Source: Oscillospiraceae bacterium
Lineage (GTDB): Bacteria > Bacillota > Clostridia > Saccharofermentanales > Saccharofermentanaceae
DNA length: 38,710 bases
Assembly (NCBI GenBank): GCA_902776845.1
Contig: CACYRM010000006.1
Span: 1-38,710 of the forward strand
Direction: 5' to 3'
The position numbers and the translations under genes are program-made. Shown one piece after another: positions 732 through 38,706 of the stretch (within the stretch, counting starts at the first letter, position 1; each line of letters starts with the position of its first letter). The notes beneath the pieces were generated by a model. The model was not told the origin of the DNA, ran no database searches, and saw nothing but the letters and a program-made list of their open reading frames with translations.

Positions 732-807
732 GGTGAGCCATGGGGGACTCGAACCTCCGGCCCACAGCTTAGAAGGCTGTTGCTCTATCCAGCTGAGCTA
801 ATGACCC
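731..807 (-). tRNA. tRNA-Arg (anticodon UCU)
   Basis: A 77-base cloverleaf with encoded CCA. The acceptor stem GGGTCAT pairs with ATGGCTC, using G-U pairs. The anticodon stem ACAGC/GCTGT frames the loop CTTCTAA, so the anticodon is TCT and it reads AGA/AGG. The T arm GGAGG-TTCGAGT-CCCCC has one A-C mismatch. Its 5' end touches the CCA of the upstream tRNA-Gly relic with no spacer, so maturation must separate the two by a cut exactly at the junction. Confidence 0.92.
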
Positions 808-23153: not shown

Positions 23154-26100
23154 TCATTCCTCCGCCTTAACAAAGAAATTATCATCCATAACAAGCAGAC
23201 CGTGGTTGATACAGTAATCAACAGCAAGTTTGCCGAGTCTGTAAGCATCTGAATCCTTTGGAACTCTCGTAAAGCCCAGCGTCTTGCCTGTCTCCACGGT
23301 CAAGGCTTCATACGGCATTCCGTACTGGGACCTCGCCAGATAGTTCGCTGCGCAGGCAGCTTCCTCAACCGCGATATCAGAGGCCTTTCTGGGCTTCTCT
23401 CCTTCAGCCGGCACTCTGTAATAATTCATCACTTTGCTGACATCATCGTCCTTGTTCCACAGGAAAAGTGTCTCTTCATCATCTGACGAAGGATCAAGTT
23501 TCTGTGTCCTTGGCTGCGTCTTGGACTGGACGCTTTTAATAAGATAAGCACAACGCTCTCTGAGAGCAGGTGTCACCTTGCTCAGACCGACAGCGCTGAC
23601 CAGTTCTTTTGTGATCTCCTCAGAGCTTACAGGCGCCTGCTGTTCAACGATCTCCAATATCTTCTGCTTCAGATATTCGGTAGTCTCGTTACTCTTAAAA
23701 CAGAATTCGCCTTCACTCATCTGCCTGATGTTCAGTTCAGAAGAATAACTTACAACCGCAGGGCAACCGTCATCGATTATGGTTCCGGCGTCAACCGTTT
23801 TTTTTTGCGTCTGATCCTCAGGCTGCTCTTCCGGCTGACATTCGGACTGATCCGCAGTCTCCTGTCCGTAAATTACCACTTCCGGACCTGAGCCGGCATC
23901 TTCAGCTGCTTTTTCTTCAGCCCCGGCATCTGTCTCAGGCTTTACGGGAATTGTTTCTTCACCGGCTGCACTCTCCTCACCGGGAGCATCAGCCTTTTTC
24001 TTACTGTCCTCGATCAAAGCGACAAGCTTTTCGAACACACTGTCGGGATTCTCCCACCACTCGAGAGACCATATCCTTACTACGTTCCATCCGAATCCCT
24101 TGAGCATTGATATCTGGGAGACTTCCCTTGAAGTGGTCGTGCCAGAGGATGCATAGACGGGACCGTCAAGAAGTATTCCGAGACAATAAGTACCGTCCTT
24201 TTCGGGTGATACAACACCGATATCGATCTTGAATCCTGACTTGCCCACGCCCTTGTCGGTATCGTAACCTGCTGCTTTGAACCTGGAGCAGATATCGTCT
24301 GCGATTCCCGTAAAGGCAGCATTCCTGTCGATAATGGGAGTTCCGGAATTGTCTGATGAATTGCCGGAGGAAGCGATATCCTGATCCCAGACCTCACTGC
24401 CTGACGCATACTGAAGGAACCGCTTAAATGATCTAACGCCCTCTGAAGAAGTATCAGTGATCCTTATCTCTTCGGGGGAGATCGATGAGAACACCTTCAT
24501 CTCGATCCTTGATCTTGTAACCGCAACGTTCAGTCTTCTCCAGCCGCCGTCCCTGTTAAGAGGACCGAAGTTCATAATGAGTTTGCCGTTCTCGTCTTTG
24601 CCGTATCCGACGGAGAACAGGATAACATCACGTTCGTCACCCTGGACATTTTCGAGATTCTTGATAAAGACAGGCTCTTCGCTGCCGAATGCCCATTTCT
24701 CAAGTTCCGGATCTTTGCTCGCAGCTTCATCCAGGAGATCTTCGATAAGCGACTGCTGCTGGATATTGAAAGTAACGACGCCAACACTGTACTTCGAAAG
24801 AACAGGGTCGTGCGCTCTCTTAACGATCTCGTCAATAACAGCCTGCGCTTCGATCCTGTTTGTTCTGGTCTTGCCTGAATCGAAGGATCCTCCGCAGTCG
24901 ACCATAGTTACCTTGGCCTGCCTGTTATCAGGCGACGGGAATGTGTAAAGTCTTCCCTCATAGAAAGCCTTATTTGAGAAAGTGATAAGGCTCTCATGAC
25001 GGCTCCTGTAGTGCCATGCAAGGAACATCTGCGGCATGCTTATAGCAAGGCAGTCATCAAGGATACTCTCGAGATCGTCTGTCTCGAAATTATCGTCGCC
25101 GTCATCCACCTGTTCCATGAAGAAAGACGTAGGCGGCATCTGCTTGGGATCGCCGACAATAACGGCTTCCTTTCCTCTCGCTATAACACCGATCGCCTTG
25201 CATGTCGGCAGCTGGCTCGCCTCGTCGAAAACAACGACATCGAACATTCCGATCTTATCGGGATCTATAAACTGAGCGCATGAAAGAGGGCTCATGAGAA
25301 CACAGGGACAGAGCTTCAGAATAAGATCTCCGATCTGCGTGAACAGGGTTCTTATAGATACTCCCCTTCCGCCTGCCTTGATCGCGTGCTGAAGTATTCC
25401 CAAAGCGGAAGATACGTTAGCGTCACGGCTCATATCCGGAAGGTTCTTCGCGATCCTCAGGTAGATCTCCTGTCTTGTCAGTTTCTCAAATTCGTCATTG
25501 ACCTTTGAAAGTTCCCTTATCTTATTCTCGAAAACAAGTCCGCTGAAAGTCCTGAGAACATCGCTGTTATCTATTATCTTCGAGATGAGACTGCTGCTGT
25601 AACCCTTGCGGAACGAGCTGATTATATCCTCTCCACCGACTGTTCCGTTATCGTAGGCATTTACAATATTGGATACTTTATACTGAGCGCATCTTGAAGC
25701 CATGAGATTGAACTGCATTCTGTCCCTCAGGTAATCACTGTCGGCTTTAAGTGTTTCAGCCATCTGCTTCTTTGTCTCGAGAAGAGCGGTAAGCGGTTCA
25801 TAAGCGCCCGTCTCAAAACCGTATGTATTCTTGAGCGCGCCGTAAGAAGCCGCATAAGCAGAGGTCTTCAGGTTAAAATCATTTACCGTACTGATAACCG
25901 AAGGATCTCCGGAACCTATCAGTTTCCGGAGTGCTCCTGCAGGATCGAAAGCGGCAAACTCCGCAAATACGGCATGGGCATTCTCATTCATTGATTCAAC
26001 ATAGGCCGTATCAAATCCCGGGAACGGCGATGCCGGGTTATAAAGCTCGCCTAGATAGCTTCTTGACGAAGCGATTGAATTCAAAGCGAACTGAAGCGAA

Positions 26101-28178
26101 TTCTTATATTCGATGAGGAGCTTAAAATCCTGCTCAAGATACTCCTTGCGGCTTCCTTTGAGATCGTATGCCCTGACCTTCTTGTATACGTTATTCTCCG
26201 CAGCGCCTCTCATAAGGGCATTTTTGGACTTGGCCGTCATAAGCTCATTCAGCAGAAGCGAGCCGTCAAGATCGAGGAATCCGGGCTGCCAGAAAGCCAG
26301 CAGTCCGTCTCTTTTGGCAACCGCGTCCTTACAACTGATAATCGTATCTCTTAATGAAAGATAGGCATTCTCGGTATTGTCACAGCAGATGATCCCTTTG
26401 GGAAGCTTGAGGTTATTAAGCTTAACGATAGCGATACCGCAGGCATTAAGACCGGCGATCCTTCCGACAGTCTGAGGTTCACAGGCTATCCTGCAGCCAC
26501 ATGCTGCTGTGAGCTTTTCGAAATTGGCTATGCTTACGGTCAGTTCGTCATAAGCCTTAATGAACTCATCCGCCAATGAAGTTAACTTGTTCTTTGCATC
26601 CTGTGAGTATTCTGAAGACTTTACGAACGGGAGTTTTCCGGCAAGCCTGCCCGAAGACGCAACAAGCTCTCCCAGAGCCGTCTCGGTCTCTCTTATCCCC
26701 GCAGATGTGAGTTCATCCTCAAATCCGGCATCGAAAGTCCCCGCATCGGCAGCGTTCTGATTGGAAGCATAGACATTGATCAGTTCATATAAAGACATGC
26801 CGCATTCACGCGTTGAATGAAGCTCATCAACATATTTATCGAGTTCTTTACGCTTGGCCTCGATATCCGCGAGAGCCTTATCGTAGCCGCCGTCAACACC
26901 CGGATTCAGTCTGACTTCGCTCGCAGTCTTGAGCTGGTCAAGGACATAGCTCTTACGGACTTTGTTGGAATGAAGTTCAAGGCAGAAAGGCGCGATTCCT
27001 ATCTTCTCAAGACGTTTGTAAACGACATCGAGAGCAGCTTTTTTCTCAGCAGCGAAAAGCACCTTTTTATTATTCGCCAGACAATTGGCGATTATAGACG
27101 TAATAGTCTGTGACTTGCCCGTTCCCGGAGGACCGTGCAATACAAAGCTTGCTCCTTCGCCCGCCTTCTTGATGGCGGCAAGCTGGGAGCTGTCGGCAAC
27201 TATAGGAAGATAAACATCATCTTCTGAAACTTTTCCGGAAGATGCGATATTCTCATAATCCCATTCGAGCTGACCGTTGATAAGGCTCTTTACGATCTTA
27301 TTCTGGGCGATCGAATCCCTGTGGCTGTGCATATCGTTCCACATAACAAACTGCGAGAACGAGAACAGTCCCAGAACACAGGACTCAACGACTTCCCACT
27401 TGAGAGAACGGACAGCTTCCTTAACCGCCTCAAAAACTTTCCTGACATCGACTCCGTTCTCATCTGCAGGAAGAGTCTTGCTGAAATCATCAAATTCGAT
27501 CCCGAAATCCTGTCTCAGCTTCTCTGAAACGGTGACATTGAACTGGACATCCTCGTCCCTTCTTCTCATCGTGTACTTGATACCGAACTTCTTGACAAGC
27601 TCGACCGGGATCAGAAGTATCGGAGCGTAACACGGATCCTTCCTGTCCTTTTCGAACCATTTAAGAAATCCGCAGGCAAGGAACAGAGTGTTGGCGCCGT
27701 TCTCTTCGATCGAAGATTTGGCACCTCTGTAAAGTGTCTTGATATTCTTATCCAGAACGGCATTTGTAAGGGATGAGACAAGAACACCCTTCTCACATTT
27801 CTTGTCGATGAATTCCTTGAATTCCGTGATATCGGCAAGATCTTCGATGGAATAATCCTTTGCGGGTATGTCCTTGATCTTCTTTGCTTTAGCTTCCTGA
27901 ACAGGCTTTTCATCGGGAACTTCAGCACCTTCAGTTTTTTCCTCCGGTGTAATCTCCTCAGTTTCTTCGGTCTCGTCCTCATCACCGCGTGAAATAATGG
28001 AGAAGCTCTTCTCCTGGGCGATCATGTCTTCTATATTTGCGCATTCAGGAACAAAGAGCGGGATGCATGATCCCTTTATCCTCAGATTCAGAAGCGAATT
28101 ACGTGTGCTTAAGTCAAGGAGTTTGCGTTCCCATAAGTCGAATTTGACCTTGCTCCGTTCAAGATTGAGCTCACCCAT
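23154..28178 (-). CDS. Giant DUF4011/SF1 helicase/Vsr-like/DUF3320-type protein
   Basis: A 1674-residue protein. The N-terminus has the DUF4011 motif WERKLLDLSTRNSLLNLR (about residues 16-33). The split SF1 helicase follows: Walker A GPPGTGKSQT (about 348), a long alpha-helical insert (about 420-890), Walker B VVFDEASQLP (about 982), GDPKQMPP, and VQGDERDVI with LNVAVTRSR (about 1220). A Vsr/DUF559-like nuclease fold follows (KIDIGV about 1315, LGILLDG about 1333, RIWSLEWW about 1368). By eye the Glu expected before CDG/VDG is Leu and the following His is Ala, so cutting may be lost. An acidic/Gln linker and two winged-helix-like C-terminal segments end it. This architecture occurs in predicted phage-defence proteins. 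GGAGGAA precedes the ATG. Confidence 0.88.
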   Translation of the reverse strand: MGELNLERSKVKFDLWERKLLDLSTRNSLLNLRIKGSCIPLFVPECANIEDMIAQEKSFSIISRGDEDETEETEEITPEEKTEGAEVPDEKPVQEAKAKKIKDIPAKDYSIEDLADITEFKEFIDKKCEKGVLVSSLTNAVLDKNIKTLYRGAKSSIEENGANTLFLACGFLKWFEKDRKDPCYAPILLIPVELVKKFGIKYTMRRRDEDVQFNVTVSEKLRQDFGIEFDDFSKTLPADENGVDVRKVFEAVKEAVRSLKWEVVESCVLGLFSFSQFVMWNDMHSHRDSIAQNKIVKSLINGQLEWDYENIASSGKVSEDDVYLPIVADSSQLAAIKKAGEGASFVLHGPPGTGKSQTITSIIANCLANNKKVLFAAEKKAALDVVYKRLEKIGIAPFCLELHSNKVRKSYVLDQLKTASEVRLNPGVDGGYDKALADIEAKRKELDKYVDELHSTRECGMSLYELINVYASNQNAADAGTFDAGFEDELTSAGIRETETALGELVASSGRLAGKLPFVKSSEYSQDAKNKLTSLADEFIKAYDELTVSIANFEKLTAACGCRIACEPQTVGRIAGLNACGIAIVKLNNLKLPKGIICCDNTENAYLSLRDTIISCKDAVAKRDGLLAFWQPGFLDLDGSLLLNELMTAKSKNALMRGAAENNVYKKVRAYDLKGSRKEYLEQDFKLLIEYKNSLQFALNSIASSRSYLGELYNPASPFPGFDTAYVESMNENAHAVFAEFAAFDPAGALRKLIGSGDPSVISTVNDFNLKTSAYAASYGALKNTYGFETGAYEPLTALLETKKQMAETLKADSDYLRDRMQFNLMASRCAQYKVSNIVNAYDNGTVGGEDIISSFRKGYSSSLISKIIDNSDVLRTFSGLVFENKIRELSKVNDEFEKLTRQEIYLRIAKNLPDMSRDANVSSALGILQHAIKAGGRGVSIRTLFTQIGDLILKLCPCVLMSPLSCAQFIDPDKIGMFDVVVFDEASQLPTCKAIGVIARGKEAVIVGDPKQMPPTSFFMEQVDDGDDNFETDDLESILDDCLAISMPQMFLAWHYRSRHESLITFSNKAFYEGRLYTFPSPDNRQAKVTMVDCGGSFDSGKTRTNRIEAQAVIDEIVKRAHDPVLSKYSVGVVTFNIQQQSLIEDLLDEAASKDPELEKWAFGSEEPVFIKNLENVQGDERDVILFSVGYGKDENGKLIMNFGPLNRDGGWRRLNVAVTRSRIEMKVFSSISPEEIRITDTSSEGVRSFKRFLQYASGSEVWDQDIASSGNSSDNSGTPIIDRNAAFTGIADDICSRFKAAGYDTDKGVGKSGFKIDIGVVSPEKDGTYCLGILLDGPVYASSGTTTSREVSQISMLKGFGWNVVRIWSLEWWENPDSVFEKLVALIEDSKKKADAPGEESAAGEETIPVKPETDAGAEEKAAEDAGSGPEVVIYGQETADQSECQPEEQPEDQTQKKTVDAGTIIDDGCPAVVSYSSELNIRQMSEGEFCFKSNETTEYLKQKILEIVEQQAPVSSEEITKELVSAVGLSKVTPALRERCAYLIKSVQSKTQPRTQKLDPSSDDEETLFLWNKDDDVSKVMNYYRVPAEGEKPRKASDIAVEEAACAANYLARSQYGMPYEALTVETGKTLGFTRVPKDSDAYRLGKLAVDYCINHGLLVMDDNFFVKAEE

Positions 28179-28983: not shown

Positions 28984-30852
28984 TTATTTATTTGACTTGA
29001 TAAGCTTATCGAAGTTCTTGCCGTTAACGTCATACATTGTATGACCCAATTCGGCGAGGCGGGATTCGATATGCTCCTGCTCCTTGGGACGCTTGATCTT
29101 GAGCGTTGTCGTCTTGATCATATCTTCTTCGGAGAAGACATAGTTGCGTACGATCTTATACTGGGGCATCTTGTGGTTAGCCTCGTGGATCTTATCATTG
29201 AGATATGTCTCGATCTGTCCGTCATCAGCCTCAGTCGCAAGACCGAGCTCAGCGCCGATGATCTTACGGTTTATAAGGATCTTGGCGCAGATATCAATGG
29301 CTTCACGGTCATTTTTATTGCCCCAGACAAACGCCTCGGTGACACCCTTGATCTCGGTAAGAACAGCCTCGATCTCTTCAGGGAAAGCCTTTTTGCCGTT
29401 CGTCAGAACGATCATGGACTTAACACGGCCTGTAATGTGGATGGAACCGGTCTTATCGATATATCCCATGTCGCCCGTATGGAACCAACCATTCTCATCG
29501 ATAGCATCCTTGGTGGCTTCCTCATTCTCATAGTAACCGAGCATGACGCAATCTGACTTGGTAAGGATCTCGCCTACGGCCTTGGGACCTTTACCTTCAG
29601 CATCGATAGCAACCGTTATTCCCGGCAGAGGGCGTCCTACGGAGCCGTGAACATCACAGACCTCCGTGTTTACGGAGATAACCGGCGATGTCTCGGTAAG
29701 GCCGTAACCCATGTAGAACTGGAGGCCGAAGTCCGTAAAAGCATCAATATATTTCTTGTCGATTCCGGCGCCGCCGATAACGACCATACGGAAATTACCG
29801 CCGAGTTTATCAAGGATATCCTTGAAAACATTGCGTCTTACGTCGATACCGCACTTTTTGAGGAAACGAGTCACGGGTCTCGCAATAGCGATGATCCTCT
29901 CTTTTCCTGAGGATTTGATTCCGTCTTCGATCTTCTCGTAAATGTTTTCGAAAAGAAGAGGCACGGAAATACATACATCAGGCTTCCATTCCTCCATATT
30001 CTTGACGATATATCTGAGACCGTCGCACATGCAGATACAACCGCCGCTGGACAGGATAAAGAAATCGCAAGTGTTCTCGAACGTGTGATGCAGAGGAAGG
30101 ATGGAGAAAGCCCTGTCGCCTCTTCTGACATCAAGCGTCTGCGCAATCGAATATACATTGGAAACTATATTGTTATGTGAGAGCAGTACACCCTTGCTCA
30201 TGGAAGTCGTTCCCGAAGTAAAGAGGATGATCTTTGCCTCATTTACATCGATCGGGGTATCCATGAATTTGGTATCACCTGCTTCAATATAGACGTTGCC
30301 TTCTTTGATAAGGTCGTAGATATCAGCAAAACGGTCATCGTCCTCAGGCCATGTGTCATCCTTTGTCTTTCCGGAGAGACCGTCCTTATAGAAGATTACA
30401 AACTTATCAAGCGGTATATCCAGCTCGCCGGACTTGATCTTGGCAGCTATGGAAAGCATCATCTTGTGATGTCTGTGGTGATAGAAGATAAGTCTGGATT
30501 TTGATCTGACAAGGAGCTGGATGAGTTCATCTTCCGGAAGCGCCCTGTCCAGAGGAACGCCGACACAGGCTGACGACAGGATAGCGTTATATGAGACAAA
30601 CCATTCGTAAGCGTTCTCACCTACCACGGCAATTCTCTGTCCCGCATATTCACTGTTAAGGAGATATGTGGCCAAGCCCTTGATATCGTTCCCGTATTCG
30701 AAAAAACTCCTGTGGATCTCGGAAAGCTTCGGGGAACGTCTGAATATGAAAGCATCCAGTTCAGAGTACTTTGCGCAAGTACGGACCACCAGATCCCTTA
30801 TGTCCGTAAACTTCTCAGCTGTATAAACAGGCGTACCCTGTACAGGATCCAT
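28984..30852 (-). CDS. Long-chain acyl-CoA synthetase-like AMP-forming ligase
   Basis: A 622-residue ANL-family enzyme that would activate fatty acids with ATP. The AMP loop LFTSGTTSMSKGVLLSH (about residue 213), the YGLTETSP motif (about 380), WFHTGDMGYID (about 455) and the hinge ITGRVKSMIVLTNGKKAFPEE are complete. The C-terminal catalytic Lys would be in KTTTLKIKRPKE (about 590). Chain length specificity cannot be read. GGAGG lies before the ATG. It is divergent from a PlsC acyltransferase gene, which suggests that the activated acyl groups feed phospholipid synthesis. Confidence 0.92.
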   Translation of the reverse strand: MDPVQGTPVYTAEKFTDIRDLVVRTCAKYSELDAFIFRRSPKLSEIHRSFFEYGNDIKGLATYLLNSEYAGQRIAVVGENAYEWFVSYNAILSSACVGVPLDRALPEDELIQLLVRSKSRLIFYHHRHHKMMLSIAAKIKSGELDIPLDKFVIFYKDGLSGKTKDDTWPEDDDRFADIYDLIKEGNVYIEAGDTKFMDTPIDVNEAKIILFTSGTTSMSKGVLLSHNNIVSNVYSIAQTLDVRRGDRAFSILPLHHTFENTCDFFILSSGGCICMCDGLRYIVKNMEEWKPDVCISVPLLFENIYEKIEDGIKSSGKERIIAIARPVTRFLKKCGIDVRRNVFKDILDKLGGNFRMVVIGGAGIDKKYIDAFTDFGLQFYMGYGLTETSPVISVNTEVCDVHGSVGRPLPGITVAIDAEGKGPKAVGEILTKSDCVMLGYYENEEATKDAIDENGWFHTGDMGYIDKTGSIHITGRVKSMIVLTNGKKAFPEEIEAVLTEIKGVTEAFVWGNKNDREAIDICAKILINRKIIGAELGLATEADDGQIETYLNDKIHEANHKMPQYKIVRNYVFSEEDMIKTTTLKIKRPKEQEHIESRLAELGHTMYDVNGKNFDKLIKSNK

Positions 30853-30940: not shown

Positions 30941-31010
30941 GAATTCGCTAAAATGCTGTTTTTGCGTTATATTAGTGTATTATTTTGTCAGAAACCTTTC
31001 AGGAGTATAT

Positions 31011-31787
31011 ATGTCTGAAGAAGAAAAAACATTAAAACCTGACGGAATGGCCTCTGCGGACACCGAGCCCAGGATGTCAAAAGCCGATCATCACAAACAA
31101 CTTGACGAGAAATATCCCACCAAGCGCGGATTTTGGGATGTAATGGCCAAAAACGGCTTTCTTCTCCTGACACATATCCTCTGCGACATGAAATGTATCG
31201 GCAGAGAGAATTTCCCGAAGAACAATCCTTATGTCGTCGCGTCCAACCACCAGAGTTACCCGGACGGCGTCCTTATCATAGATTATCTCCCGAAAGGTCA
31301 TTTCAAATGGATGTGCTGCCTCGCGGCTTCAGACCTTGAGACAAACCACGGCAAGCTCGGCCGTCTCATCATGAGAGTCGGCAGAGGAATCGCGGTAGAC
31401 CGTTACGGCAATCCCGTAAGAGGTCTCATCAAGGCAAAGAAGGAAGTCGAAAAGGGCAATATCTGCTTTGTCTTCCCCGAAGGCACAAGATCCCATACCG
31501 GCAAACTGGCCGAAATGAAAGACGGTGCCGCTTACCTTGCCATCAAGGCCGGCGTCCCCATGGTACCCGTCTACATTGCGGGAGCATATCAGATCTGGCC
31601 GAGAACATCCAAAAAGCCTCATCCCCTTAACGGCCTTCACCGCCGTAAGATCAGGATCTATGTAGGAGAACCTCTGAACGGAGCTGATTTTGACAACGAT
31701 GCCCACAAGATGACTGAGGCTCTTTCCGCCTGGATGCATAAGCATGAGGATCTGTACTGGGATCCCGAGACGAATTTCGAAGCGTAA
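31011..31787 (+). CDS. plsC: 1-acylglycerol-3-phosphate acyltransferase (PlsC family)
   Basis: A 258-residue acyltransferase that would form phosphatidic acid. It has the NHxxxxD motif NHQSYPD (about residue 77), the block around GRGIAVDR (about 125), and FPEGTRSHTGKLAEMKDGAAYLA (split over blocks III, about 158), then VPMVPVYIAG. A charged N-terminus of about 40 residues precedes a weak hydrophobic segment. The ATG at 31011 has AGGAG; in-frame upstream sequence lacks a ribosome site. It converges with the transporter-acyltransferase fusion, with only eight bases between the stops. Confidence 0.92.
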   Translation: MSEEEKTLKPDGMASADTEPRMSKADHHKQLDEKYPTKRGFWDVMAKNGFLLLTHILCDMKCIGRENFPKNNPYVVASNHQSYPDGVLIIDYLPKGHFKWMCCLAASDLETNHGKLGRLIMRVGRGIAVDRYGNPVRGLIKAKKEVEKGNICFVFPEGTRSHTGKLAEMKDGAAYLAIKAGVPMVPVYIAGAYQIWPRTSKKPHPLNGLHRRKIRIYVGEPLNGADFDNDAHKMTEALSAWMHKHEDLYWDPETNFEA

Positions 31788-31795
31788 TACTTCAA

Positions 31796-34456
31796 TTACG
31801 AATACAGCCCGCCCAGGTATTCAGTCGCGAACTGGATCTTGGTGGGATTGAACACTTCCCTGCTCTCTTCCGTCGGATAGATGAAGAATGTGTCATCGTA
31901 AGTTGACAGCGTGACACACGGACCGTATTTGCCCCTGTAATCATATTCGGTATGAAGCGAGATCATGGATTTAGCCGGAAACTTAAGAGTCTCGTGCTTT
32001 TCGCTCCTGTAGTTATCGAATTCCAGCGAAAACCCGCTGTTGTCCTGGATAAATCTTCCTTCACCACAATCAACGAAATTAACAGCATTAGGCAGCGCCC
32101 AGATTCTGACGGGAATATCAAGCCTATAAGCACCTGACCTGATCTCCTCATGGACAAATCCTCTCTGCCACTCATACCAGTCAGGGATATGCACCGTCTC
32201 ACCGGACCCGGAATGAAGCCGGCCGTATTCATCCATCTCATACGAATCACCGCAGTATTTGCACGTGATCCTGCTGCCGGATGAGGTCATGGCAAAGTCC
32301 TTACCGCACTTTCTGCATCTGTACAGCGGATAATGAAGGCCCTCTGCTCTCCACTCATCATCTATTTTGATCTTGTTTTCGAGCTGGTACTTATACTCAT
32401 CGTAAGTAAGCTCTTTGGATATCCTCGAAAGGATCTCATCAACGGAAAGCTTATCTATCTCATCCGCCGTTACGACACACTTAAGATCTGCATGTAATCT
32501 CGCGCCCTTGCGTTCCTTAAGATTCCAGATAGGCTGCTGCAGATAGTTTCCCTGCATATTCAGTGTCACGACAGGCACCTTAAGCATCTTTGCCAGTTTT
32601 GCAATAGACGGGGCAAGATGGGAATTAGTTCCGACATTTGCGTATCTTGCCTCGGGATAGATGACCATAATGTCGCCGCGCTTTATGACACGGGCAATAT
32701 TTCTGATCAGTGACTGGTCGTTGATGAATTTACGGGTGCCGAGGCATCCTGCCTGACGGTAGATCCACTCGCCGAAGTTCTCAAATCCTTCAAGTTCCGA
32801 GATGTAGTTTGCCCTGTAAGGCTTCAGGGCAAGCGGAGTTACATAGAAATCCATAAATGAATTATGGGAACCGTATACGAGGAACGGCGGCTTGATGCCC
32901 TCCATATTATGCTTATCGATCTTAAGCTTATAAGGCGAGACCGTTATCCTGCATAACAGCCACATCAGAGGCAGGAAGAACAGATTCTGCCTCGGAGGAA
33001 CCTTTGCCCTGTCGAAAGGCCTCTTGTCCGGACTTGCATATGTATCTCTTCTGATATAGCGGCGAACGCCGGGTATCCTGCTGAGCAGCAGATACAGAAC
33101 TCCAGTAAAGATAAAAGATGCCAGCGTCGGAGTAAGCATGAACAGGATCTTATTGTGGATGATCCCCTTTATCGGATCGTAAACCAGAAGCGTAAATCCG
33201 AAGCCCAGTGCCAGGCAGACGATACCTACGATATTGAATCCTTTAGAATACTGATAGGCATTGTGACCCGGCATCTCATAAGCGCTCTTCAGGTCTATCT
33301 TCTGCTTCCTGATAAGGAAGAAATCGACAAAGAGAAGAGCTGCCAGAGGCGCGTAAACACATGCGCCTATAGTAAGGAAACTGCCGAAGTATTCAGTGAT
33401 CTTTCCCCAAACGCAAAGAAGACCGACATAAAGACCCAGAACAAGAACAAGGACCTTGTATGAAGATTTCTTGAAAGTCGATTTGAGCATTACGCCATAA
33501 ATATATGAGCCTACCGCCTGTGTTCCGATATTCGCGAAAGCGACCAAAAGGAGTGATGACAGTCCGAGGATAGGCGCGGACAAAGTCGCCATCATGAGAG
33601 TAGGGTCATCCACCATCTTTCCCGTCACATACTGCATGGCGATTGCCATTACGGCTCCGACAACAACGAAGAAAGATCCTGCGGCACCCTGCCCCAATAC
33701 TCCGGCATAGTATCCGGATCTCTCGGATTTACAGAGTCTCGGAACCTCTGCCATTCCTCCGACGAGTGTGATGACAAACGCGAAGTTGGCTTCGATGCTG
33801 AGAACATAATTGACGGTCTTATCCGCATCACCCGCAAGCTCAGGCTGATAGTTCCAGATAACGTCCATAGGAACGGATGTGAATCCGACTATAACAACAG
33901 CCACACCGACAAGGAGAAGGAGCGGCACGAGGATCCTTGTGGTCCATGTAATAGTGCCTACGCCCCTTAACGCGATCACCGTACCGATGATAACGCACGA
34001 AAGGCTTAAGATCAGATGGGCCCCGTCAAACAGTTGTATTCCGAACAGTCCCAGGAGATTTCCCATAGAGTCTGCGAACAGTTCGCAACACACTGCATAC
34101 CACGGGAAATTAACAGCAATTATGATTATCGTAACGATCTTATTTCCTCTTGGCCCGAAAACGCTCCTGAGCCAGATCCATATATCTATGCCGTATCTGA
34201 CAGACATTATTACAGGCAGCTGGTATACCATCAGCATGAAGATTGCTGCCAGGAAAGCGCCTATCAGAAGCTGTTTAAACCCTACCAGGGTTGCAAGATA
34301 CGAGCCCTGAGTATAGCTCCATGTCGCTATGCAGTATCCTGACAGGACAAGAAGCGCATCTATAAATCCGTATTTTCTCTCTTTGGGCAGAACAGGAAGC
34401 GTTCCGCAATAGACTTCATTCTCTATCTCTTTATTAACATCATGTTTGCGGCTCAC
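31796..34456 (-). CDS. NCS1-type nucleobase transporter fused to a PlsC acyltransferase and zinc ribbon
   Basis: An 886-residue single chain. Residues about 20-465 form a twelve-helix NCS1 (cytosine permease/CodB-like) transporter: YGFIDALLVLSGYCIATWSY at the start, VNFPWYAVCCELFADS and a TQAVGSYIYG segment. Residues about 490-690 are a PlsC-type acyltransferase: HNSFMD (the HxxxxD motif, about 531), YISELEGFENFG, GCLGTRKF, and YPEARYA in place of FPEGTRS. At 712-733 is a two-pair zinc ribbon (CRKC and CKYC), followed by about 150 residues of unknown beta-rich sequence. The boundary region shows no stop or frameshift. The GTG start overlaps the stop of a 51-residue membrane peptide by four bases. 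Substrate and reaction are unknown. Confidence 0.88.
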   Translation of the reverse strand: MSRKHDVNKEIENEVYCGTLPVLPKERKYGFIDALLVLSGYCIATWSYTQGSYLATLVGFKQLLIGAFLAAIFMLMVYQLPVIMSVRYGIDIWIWLRSVFGPRGNKIVTIIIIAVNFPWYAVCCELFADSMGNLLGLFGIQLFDGAHLILSLSCVIIGTVIALRGVGTITWTTRILVPLLLLVGVAVVIVGFTSVPMDVIWNYQPELAGDADKTVNYVLSIEANFAFVITLVGGMAEVPRLCKSERSGYYAGVLGQGAAGSFFVVVGAVMAIAMQYVTGKMVDDPTLMMATLSAPILGLSSLLLVAFANIGTQAVGSYIYGVMLKSTFKKSSYKVLVLVLGLYVGLLCVWGKITEYFGSFLTIGACVYAPLAALLFVDFFLIRKQKIDLKSAYEMPGHNAYQYSKGFNIVGIVCLALGFGFTLLVYDPIKGIIHNKILFMLTPTLASFIFTGVLYLLLSRIPGVRRYIRRDTYASPDKRPFDRAKVPPRQNLFFLPLMWLLCRITVSPYKLKIDKHNMEGIKPPFLVYGSHNSFMDFYVTPLALKPYRANYISELEGFENFGEWIYRQAGCLGTRKFINDQSLIRNIARVIKRGDIMVIYPEARYANVGTNSHLAPSIAKLAKMLKVPVVTLNMQGNYLQQPIWNLKERKGARLHADLKCVVTADEIDKLSVDEILSRISKELTYDEYKYQLENKIKIDDEWRAEGLHYPLYRCRKCGKDFAMTSSGSRITCKYCGDSYEMDEYGRLHSGSGETVHIPDWYEWQRGFVHEEIRSGAYRLDIPVRIWALPNAVNFVDCGEGRFIQDNSGFSLEFDNYRSEKHETLKFPAKSMISLHTEYDYRGKYGPCVTLSTYDDTFFIYPTEESREVFNPTKIQFATEYLGGLYS

Positions 34457-34608
34457 AGAAAGAATCCCCCTATTATCCCGATAAGAGAGATCACGATTAT
34501 GACCGCTGCGATTATATAATCTCTTTTCGTCATGCGGGGGATACTGTTATCCTTCTCCGCTTTGAGGACTTCTCCGATCCTCGATTCGAGTTCACTGTTG
34601 CTGTCCAT
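34453..34608 (-). CDS. 51-residue membrane peptide coupled to the fusion transporter
   Basis: A short gene read directly from the sequence: MDSNSELESRIGEVLKAEKD, a basic stretch around MTKRDY, then one hydrophobic helix of about 20 residues (IIAAVIIVISLIGIIGG) ending FFL. AAGGG stands seven bases before the ATG at 34608. Its TGA overlaps the GTG of the transporter-acyltransferase fusion (GTGA), so the two must be translated together. It is probably a small subunit or regulator of that fusion, with its N-terminal charged helix in the cytoplasm. Confidence 0.8.
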   Translation of the reverse strand: MDSNSELESRIGEVLKAEKDNSIPRMTKRDYIIAAVIIVISLIGIIGGFFL

Positions 34609-35273: not shown

Positions 35274-35453
35274 TTAATCTCCAAGACTCTGGACCTGCCC
35301 GGTCACATTGCTGAAAGCGCCCTTCCAGTCGTACTCCATTGCCTTTCCGCCAAGCTTGATCGCAAACAGGCCAATCGTGATTATGGCCATAAAGCAGGCA
35401 AGGAAAAGAGCAACCGCACCGGTGATCAGTAACTTAATATCTTTCTTTTCCAT
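35274..35453 (-). CDS. 59-residue membrane peptide at the end of the PadR operon
   Basis: Read directly from the sequence: start MEKKDIKLLI, a hydrophobic helix of about 25 residues (ALFLACFMAIITIGLFAI), then a short polar end with EYDWKGAFSNVTGQ and LGD before TAA. GGGGGAGG from the end of the HAAS gene serves as its ribosome site, three bases after that gene's stop. Small membrane proteins or DUF4097 proteins commonly follow PadR-HAAS pairs; this one is too small for the latter. Function unknown. Confidence 0.78.
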   Translation of the reverse strand: MEKKDIKLLITGAVALFLACFMAIITIGLFAIKLGGKAMEYDWKGAFSNVTGQVQSLGD

Positions 35454-35456
35454 AGA

Positions 35457-36026
35457 TCAGTCCTCCCCCAGGCCATAGTTCCAAACGTTCTTGTTCCATC
35501 TTATGTAGGACTTGAGTCCCTTTGCATAGTACTTGATTCCGAGGATCAGTAATACGATCAGGAAAACTGCCACACATATAAGGGTAAGAACAAGGAAAAT
35601 AAAAGGAATGATGTATTCCATTAATGTTCCCGCAACCAGACCTGCAACGATAAGTCCAATGATCGCGCAGTCACCTGCAAGGAACATGAATGCCGCAATG
35701 ATAGCTGCAAGGAAGAGAAGCCACATCTCGATTCCGACGAAAGCATTGAAAACGATTACAAAGATCCTTCCTCTTCCGTCAGGTCCCTTGAAGTTATCTG
35801 ACATCTTGCGCTTCTTGATTATCTGCTTGAACTTGGCGCCGTCCTTAAACTCCATTGCCAATTCCTTGGGATCACCAAGGCTCTCCGCAATCTCTTCTTC
35901 GCTTCTGCCTTCACTGATACCCTCTTCAAAATGCTCTTCAATAGATTGGATGATGTCCTTAACATCACCATAAGGCATGTGCCCCAATTCATCGGTGAGC
36001 TTTTTAAGATATTCCGTCTTATTCAT
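35457..36026 (-). CDS. HAAS/DUF1700 membrane protein
   Basis: 189 residues. The N-terminal 75 residues are the HAAS domain: EYLKKLTDELGHMP, DIIQSIEEHFEEGISEGRSEEEI and SLGDPKELA. The rest is three to four transmembrane helices (about 90-180). HAAS proteins are partners of PadR-type regulators and are thought to sense envelope stress. The ATG at 36026 overlaps the PadR stop and is behind GGAGG, so the pair is coupled. The usual third piece is replaced here by the 59-residue membrane peptide. Confidence 0.9.
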   Translation of the reverse strand: MNKTEYLKKLTDELGHMPYGDVKDIIQSIEEHFEEGISEGRSEEEIAESLGDPKELAMEFKDGAKFKQIIKKRKMSDNFKGPDGRGRIFVIVFNAFVGIEMWLLFLAAIIAAFMFLAGDCAIIGLIVAGLVAGTLMEYIIPFIFLVLTLICVAVFLIVLLILGIKYYAKGLKSYIRWNKNVWNYGLGED

Positions 36027-36351
36027 CGGCTTTTCCTCCATTCCCCTTGCTGAGAATTTCATTCACTTCCCCGCAGAACTTGATCCACTCATCACGTTCA
36101 GCATTTAACTTGTTACGTCCAGCATCCGTGAGATGATAATATTTGCGCGGCGGCCCGTTCTGAGATTCCTGCAGGTAAGTCGATACCACGCCTTCAGAAG
36201 CAAGCTTACGCAATATCGGATAAACAGTTCCGTCAGCTACTTCGACTTTGCGTGCAAGGTTTCCTGCGAGATCGTAGCCGTAACTGTCACCTTTCTCAAG
36301 CAACGCCAGCACACACAAATCGAGAACGCCCTTCTTGATTTGGCTGTTCAT
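36019..36351 (-). CDS. PadR-family transcriptional regulator
   Basis: 110 residues, a compact PadR. The winged helix is full: KKGVLDLCVLALLEKGDSYGYDL, VADGTVYPILRKLASEGVV, and the wing RKYYHLTDAGRNKL, then a C-terminal dimer helix. It should repress its own operon until a signal arrives. The ATG at 36351 is behind GGGGA; a reading from 36369 is less likely. The promoter upstream carries an imperfect ATTG-CAAT inverted repeat over the -35, which may be its operator. Confidence 0.93.
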   Translation of the reverse strand: MNSQIKKGVLDLCVLALLEKGDSYGYDLAGNLARKVEVADGTVYPILRKLASEGVVSTYLQESQNGPPRKYYHLTDAGRNKLNAERDEWIKFCGEVNEILSKGNGGKADE

Positions 36352-36387
36352 TGGCAATTCCCCTTTCATTCCGATTTGACGGGCTAT

Positions 36388-38357: not shown

Positions 38358-38706
38358 GGGGATGTACCGGTTTCGACGGGGCTTCTGAGGTCGGGAAAGC
38401 GGGTGGAGGATCCTCGTTGTGCCTCCTTAAAAAACGGGGAATTGCAAGTAATTGCAGACACAACAGAGCTCGTAGCAGCCTAAGGCTAGCACGTACACCG
38501 AAGACCTCGCCTGAGAGAGGTTAAGCAGGCAGTCCTACCGGTTAAGCTTTGCGCCGGATAGCGACTTTAATTCCATGAAGCTACTGGAACCGAAGCCCGC
38601 CGATGGGCCACGCGGGAATAGGAATAATTCATCTGTCGGCTGCACCCGGAGATTGTCCCGGAGGAAGAGGTTTCGGACAGGAGTTCGATTCTCCTCATCT
38701 CCACCA
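38358..38706 (+). ncRNA. ssrA: Transfer-messenger RNA (tmRNA)
   Basis: A 349-base one-piece tmRNA that rescues stalled ribosomes. The tRNA-like ends pair as GGGGATG/CATCTCC with an encoded ACCA. The 5' part reads ACCGGTTTCGACGGGG as in other tmRNAs, and the T arm is GGAGTTCGATTCTCC. The tag frame best starts at GCA (38454) and ends at TAA (38481-38483), coding ADTTELVAA. The final residues Val-Ala-Ala are a normal ClpXP/ClpAP-type degradation end. Pseudoknot regions lie between 38500 and 38660. Confidence 0.96.

Follow-up and report, generated by a model that had tools for sequence, protein, structure and literature searches.

What does a bacterium gain from joining a membrane transporter to an acyltransferase in one polypeptide? 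The window analysed here, 38,710 nucleotides of contig CACYRM010000006.1 of an Oscillospiraceae bacterium, harbours such a gene. A sequence-only reading had described it as a nucleobase transporter fused in a single frame to a phospholipid-type acyltransferase and a zinc ribbon, with a 51-residue membrane peptide overlapping its start by four bases. The ORF coordinates bear out both the fusion, which opens with GTG and contains no internal stops, and the overlap, and the two CxxC pairs noted earlier are the four cysteines of the zinc ribbon. The features are as follows:

31796-34456, minus strand: fusion ORF of 886 aa, NCS1-fold transporter, PlsC-type acyltransferase, zinc ribbon and C-terminal domain
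33029-34429, minus strand: NCS1/LeuT-fold transporter domain, residues 10-476 (Pfam and structure match)
33791-33793, minus strand: codon of Glu222, which places an acid at the substrate site on TM6a (Glu or Asp in all 12 aligned members)
32387-32989, minus strand: PlsC-type acyltransferase domain, residues about 490-690 (Pfam and profile match to 5KYM)
32849-32866, minus strand: HX4D catalytic motif, H531-D536 (invariant in 28 of 28)
32645-32656, minus strand: PEAR, residues 601-604, in place of EGTR of the classical PlsC motif III (alignment)
32252-32317, minus strand: zinc ribbon cysteines C714, C717, C732 and C735 (invariant in 28 of 28)
31796-32179, minus strand: C-terminal domain, residues about 760-886 (structure model)
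34453-34608, minus strand: ORF of a 51-aa single-TM peptide, putative accessory subunit, overlapping the fusion start by 4 bases (GTGA)

Both halves matched their families in the Pfam search at scores above the cut-offs: Transp_cyt_pur at residues 21-419 (E 3.8e-14, 52.8 bits versus 23.5) and Acyltransferase at residues 513-634 (E 5.2e-7, 30 bits versus 23). Zinc-ribbon models from Pfam matched weakly at residues 712-738 and no Pfam family matched the C-terminal domain. In an AlphaFold2 model of the fusion, built on 68 aligned relatives (mean pLDDT 85.4), this last domain consists of seven strands followed by a C-terminal helix, predicted with high confidence; going by strand order alone, it is possibly PH-like.

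We propose, with slightly better than even confidence, that the locus is an uptake-and-acylation module for a choline-type substrate, made up of an importer, an accessory peptide and a fused acyltransferase. A choline-type compound, meaning a quaternary or methylated amine, would enter through the 12-helix NCS1-fold importer, with the one-helix peptide as the importer's dedicated accessory subunit. The acyltransferase at the importer's cytoplasmic C-terminus would acylate either this compound or a lipid derived from it. In known structures NCS1 carriers have 12 helices and a cytoplasmic C-terminus, so the enzyme would sit at the inner membrane face, where acyl donors are. We infer the substrate class of the fused form, the subunit role of the peptide, the coupling of both activities and the product.

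The distribution of the two halves was studied in 76 loci, one genome per species, taken from the best 80 matches listed; because only these were listed, the proportions of fused and split forms are no census. Among these matches, single-frame fusions were found in the ORF table for 41 of the 76 loci (one cut by the contig end), while in 26 loci the halves are separate but neighbouring genes, often overlapping. The remaining classes are broken-frame fusions (2), acyltransferase-only loci (6) and a transporter-only locus (1). In total, the halves are fused or adjacent in 67 of the 76 matches listed, in several families and in two contigs binned as Treponema (L086 and L096), which carry the split form. 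Fusion carriers include the isolates Ruminococcaceae AB4001, Lachnospiraceae NE2001 and Acetivibrio mesophilus, as well as the complete genome of [Clostridium] asparagiforme. The distribution is patchy, mostly in gut or rumen Clostridia, and among 398 genomes across the phylum the fusion was found in none besides the window's own genome. Both the fusion and the peptide thus recur in related genomes. According to the sequence-only reading, the fusion would have to be given up if all close relatives had separate halves and a sequencing frameshift had joined them here. The halves are indeed separate in many relatives, but they are adjacent and often overlapping there, and a frameshift or assembly artefact was ruled out because the fusion is seen again and again in independent assemblies and in isolates.

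The junction sequences point to one or more old fusion events; L072, whose linker is longer, may represent a second one. A 960-aa ORF of L008 and L039, considered as a natural triple fusion with the peptide, proved to read through the peptide region out of frame. A search of the window and nine relatives found no riboswitch, and among the 76 loci no neighbours of the transporter and acyltransferase are conserved beyond the genus.

The acyltransferase half reached the Pfam gathering score and contains the HX4D motif of PlsC/LPLAT enzymes, and its family profile matches the PlsC structure 5KYM. In this half (ACYLTRANSFERASE), none of 28 members, even among paralogues at 23-30% identity, departs from H531, D536, P601-E602 or the four zinc cysteines. 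The classical motif III EGTR is replaced by PEAR(Y), and the LPAAT model TIGR00530 scored 17.4 bits versus a cut-off of 102.95. With PEAR(Y) instead of EGTR, the acceptor may be other than lysophosphatidate.

Do the two halves serve one substrate? The sequence-only reading had suggested a possible coupling between transport and acylation of a single substrate, an idea that the adjacent-gene and fused forms support. Coupling is not obligatory, because the acyltransferase can be found where the transporter is absent: acyltransferase-only loci (L102-L104, L107 and L108 at 53-59% identity, L081 at 77%) have kept all catalytic residues, and paralogues of about 30% identity stand alone in most of the genus. 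L102 and L093 share their flanking genes, and in L102 the transporter gene is missing from this common locus while the acyltransferase is intact. These observations favour a different explanation, in which a choline-type importer and an acyltransferase are co-expressed for membrane remodelling and have no common substrate, the enzyme acting on cell-made lysolipid and being merely anchored. We regard this as rather unlikely, since the halves are adjacent or fused in 67 of the 76 matches listed, with two broken fusions in addition, and nothing else is conserved around them.

In L107 and L108, the acyltransferase-only copies lie directly after a saccharopine-dehydrogenase-family gene, possibly encoding carboxynorspermidine synthase. 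Apart from the fusion, the window's own genome contains a distant acyltransferase/zinc-ribbon paralogue (L187, 5575-8194). It overlaps a DcuC-family transporter gene at that gene's start, which makes a second transporter-acyltransferase link.

The transporter half has the NCS1 fold. In a structure search, residues 10-476 matched both solved NCS1 structures, CodB (Z 38.1, 398 residues, 2.5 A) and Mhp1 (Z 34.9), with matches spanning 398-428 residues at 16-18% identity. Among 12 aligned members, W46, Y48, W119 and W350 are nearly invariant, and position 222 is always Glu or Asp, corresponding in the profile alignment to Gly218 on TM6a of Mhp1. Asn224 of the fused clade aligns, with moderate confidence, to Mhp1 Trp220, the TM6 stacking aromatic. 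Of the aromatic sandwich, the TM3 tryptophan (W119) is therefore kept, as in CodB and Mhp1, whereas the TM6 Phe/Trp is absent at this moderate alignment confidence. The fusion transporter further differs from both proteins in its acidic residue, its fused enzyme and its accessory peptide. The TM6 stacking aromatic is conserved throughout NCS1 (PMC9379551), and CHT choline transporters use an aromatic cage (PMC13220886). Since the site has an acid and aromatics on TM1 and TM3 but no TM6 stacker, the pocket would suit a cation more than a nucleobase.

The neighbours of unfused relatives point to the class of such a cation. Five of the six unfused relatives at 42-52% identity (L105, L178, L182, L183 and L190, the latter grouped here via its 69% identity to L183) directly adjoin a choline-kinase gene. 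In the first four this is licCA, a fused cytidylyltransferase-choline kinase (NTP_transferase and Choline_kinase domains), and in L190 the choline-kinase part of licCA lies beside the transporter. The gene order is licCA-peptide-transporter wherever it is readable, LicD is encoded near L178, and no informative neighbour was found beside the sixth relative, L179. In L105 (4026-9952), licCA, the peptide, the NCS1 transporter, a second cytidylyltransferase and a choline-binding-repeat protein are encoded in a row. The more distant L180 and L181 (32-33% identity) adjoin genes for MTTB, Dimeth_Pyl (dimethylamine methyltransferase), a corrinoid protein and pyrrolysine. In L181 (1206-13350), the peptide and NCS1 transporter lie in one cluster with pyrrolysine genes and several corrinoid/methylamine methyltransferases, and this transporter may carry methylamines. 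L184 (22-24% identity) adjoins a haem-dependent N-demethylase and an aldehyde dehydrogenase. The theme common to these neighbours is methylated and quaternary amines.

The fused clade itself lies outside choline operons and has uninformative neighbours, so the substrate of the fused form is transferred from the relatives at 42-52% identity. Within the genus, a link between licCA and the fusion was rejected as inconsistent (G008 and G023 carry the fusion but gave no licCA match, G009 the reverse). A Lic1-type operon, with a transporter beside licA/licC, is present in the five choline-kinase loci and absent from the window. In their licCA operons, the unfused relatives fill the slot of the choline importer, which in Lic1 choline uptake is LicB. 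Known LicB resembles EamA-family transporters (PMC12155760) and is not an NCS1 protein, and the window differs from Lic1 in having no licCA beside the fusion.

These findings bear on the reading that the transporter carries a nucleobase (or a thiamine precursor or hydantoin), with the acyltransferase acting on an unrelated or nucleoside-like acceptor. Although Transp_cyt_pur, weak matches to TIGR00800 and the CodB model, and CodB and Mhp1 as nearest solved folds agree with it, the NCBIfam 'nucleobase:cation symporter' model TIGR00800 scored 53.9 bits versus a cut-off of 353.1, and the cytosine and allantoin permease models stayed far below their cut-offs. Moreover, no purine or pyrimidine genes were recognised nearby, the relatives sit in choline and methylamine operons, and the NCS1-wide TM6 aromatic (PMC9379551) is Asn here, with an acid added. 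We consider this reading improbable; the fusion transporter is probably not a nucleobase transporter, and this part of the earlier description is not supported. That the transporter half no longer transports and is only a membrane anchor or lipid-binding scaffold, as had also been proposed, is very improbable and unneeded as an explanation, because its TM1, TM3 and TM6 site residues (W46, Y48, W119, E222) and the peptide are common to transporter-only relatives in licCA operons, and peptide and transporter remain together.

The peptide ORF has 50-60 residues and the pattern ELExRI..ME...FP.RF.KKDYI........CL..I.GAFL. In almost all loci that include upstream sequence, it immediately precedes the transporter gene, and the two often overlap. 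In a 40-sequence alignment, D30 and G48 are invariant, the invariance of D-Y being partly by construction because this motif belonged to the collection filter. The pN/pS of 0.20 over 105 pairs from 15 near relatives indicates purifying selection. No Pfam or NCBIfam family matched the peptide, and as judged from its conservation it is a new, unnamed small-protein family. When 398 phylum genomes were searched with a profile, strong matches outside its own genome were found in G155 and G329 and a weak one in G397, each directly preceding the gene of an NCS1 homologue that lacks the acyltransferase. In the genus, the peptide accompanies ten fusions and two transporter-only copies, and genus genomes holding only acyltransferase paralogues gave no strong match. 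It also precedes the transporter-only genes of L015/L182, L105, L178, L179, L180, L181, L183 and L190. The peptide thus tracks the transporter rather than the enzyme, because transporter-only genes have it and acyltransferase-only genomes gave none that is strong.

The N-terminal segment of the peptide is charged and conserved, and basic residues ahead of its sole TM helix suggest an N-inside orientation. A model of the L072 stop-read-through chain (peptide, linker and transporter) placed helices at peptide residues 6-22 and 29-51 (pLDDT 79.7, pTM 0.83; these scores describe the fold of the chain, not contact). Its linkage to the transporter gene makes the peptide a putative dedicated accessory subunit of the transporter. 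A precedent is SGLT2-MAP17, in which a LeuT-fold transporter carries a one-helix accessory subunit (PMC10803289), although that pair is eukaryotic and unrelated in sequence. A literature search, mostly outside subscription journals, found no paper on an NCS1 small subunit. We know of no earlier accessory subunit for an NCS1 transporter branch, and within the reading as a choline-lipid module the peptide is, tentatively, the first.

Which product would the proposed uptake-and-acylation module make? Phosphatidylcholine from scavenged glycerophosphocholine or lyso-PC is possible, though the odds are against it, acylated choline or a similar compound is doubtful, and another choline-type lipid is a further candidate. 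Glycerophosphocholine and lyso-PC may be too big for the small NCS1 pockets. In mitis streptococci and Xanthomonas, phosphatidylcholine is made via glycerophosphocholine import and double acylation, and the genes for the transporter and the glycerophosphocholine acyltransferase were described as unknown (PMC6805115, PMC10434233). Import and acylation of a choline compound is also what we propose for the fusion, and the fused protein is a candidate for this step. Conceivably, the three-part system makes membrane lipid straight from choline compounds that the cell scavenges, such as glycerophosphocholine, and supplies the missing transporter and acyltransferase, but we hold this only tentatively. 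Beside the fusion, the window contains a divergent pair of genes for an AMP-binding acyl ligase (28984-30852, minus strand) and a PlsC-like acyltransferase (30975-31787, plus strand), found at this position in 14 loci, all of this genus. The ligase and second PlsC-like gene would suit two acylations, with synteny within one genus only.

The closest known arrangement is LplT-Aas, which acts on lysophospholipids as a complex and is one chain in some bacteria (PMC11416262). In LplT-Aas of E. coli and in fused forms (MFS-PlsC-ligase, PRK06814/PRK08633), transporter and PlsC-type acyltransferase are likewise adjacent or one polypeptide, and the acceptor is delivered to an acyltransferase at the cytoplasmic face (PMC11416262), as proposed for the fusion. 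However, LplT-Aas combines MFS, PlsC and acyl-ACP ligase domains, whereas the fusion has an NCS1/LeuT-fold transporter, no ligase domain, and in addition a zinc ribbon, a C-terminal domain and an accessory peptide. By analogy, it may work like LplT-Aas while being built from other parts and not a member of that system. The architecture is apparently undescribed, as the sequence-only reading had supposed: our literature search, mostly outside subscription journals, found no paper on a cytosine-permease/acyltransferase fusion, and a C. difficile match was unrelated.

If the proposed module is real, a branch of annotated cytosine/purine permeases would import choline-type compounds and have a small subunit that has been overlooked. 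In one sub-branch import would be coupled to acylation, a second, independently built case of the LplT-Aas principle of a transporter joined to its own acyltransferase. It would also open to direct testing the step for which bacterial choline-lipid scavenging still lacks a transporter and an acyltransferase, in bacteria of gut and rumen, where the use of choline influences how much trimethylamine is produced.

Elsewhere in the window, genes for a PadR regulator, a HAAS-domain membrane protein and a 59-aa membrane ORF (35274-36369) lie directly upstream of the peptide gene and are conserved in the genus. A 1674-aa DUF4011/AAA helicase with MTES_1575 nuclease and DUF3320 regions is encoded at 23154-28178, a type frequent in defence loci. 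The window also contains a tRNA gene (734-807, minus strand) and, identified by Rfam, a tmRNA gene (38358-38706).
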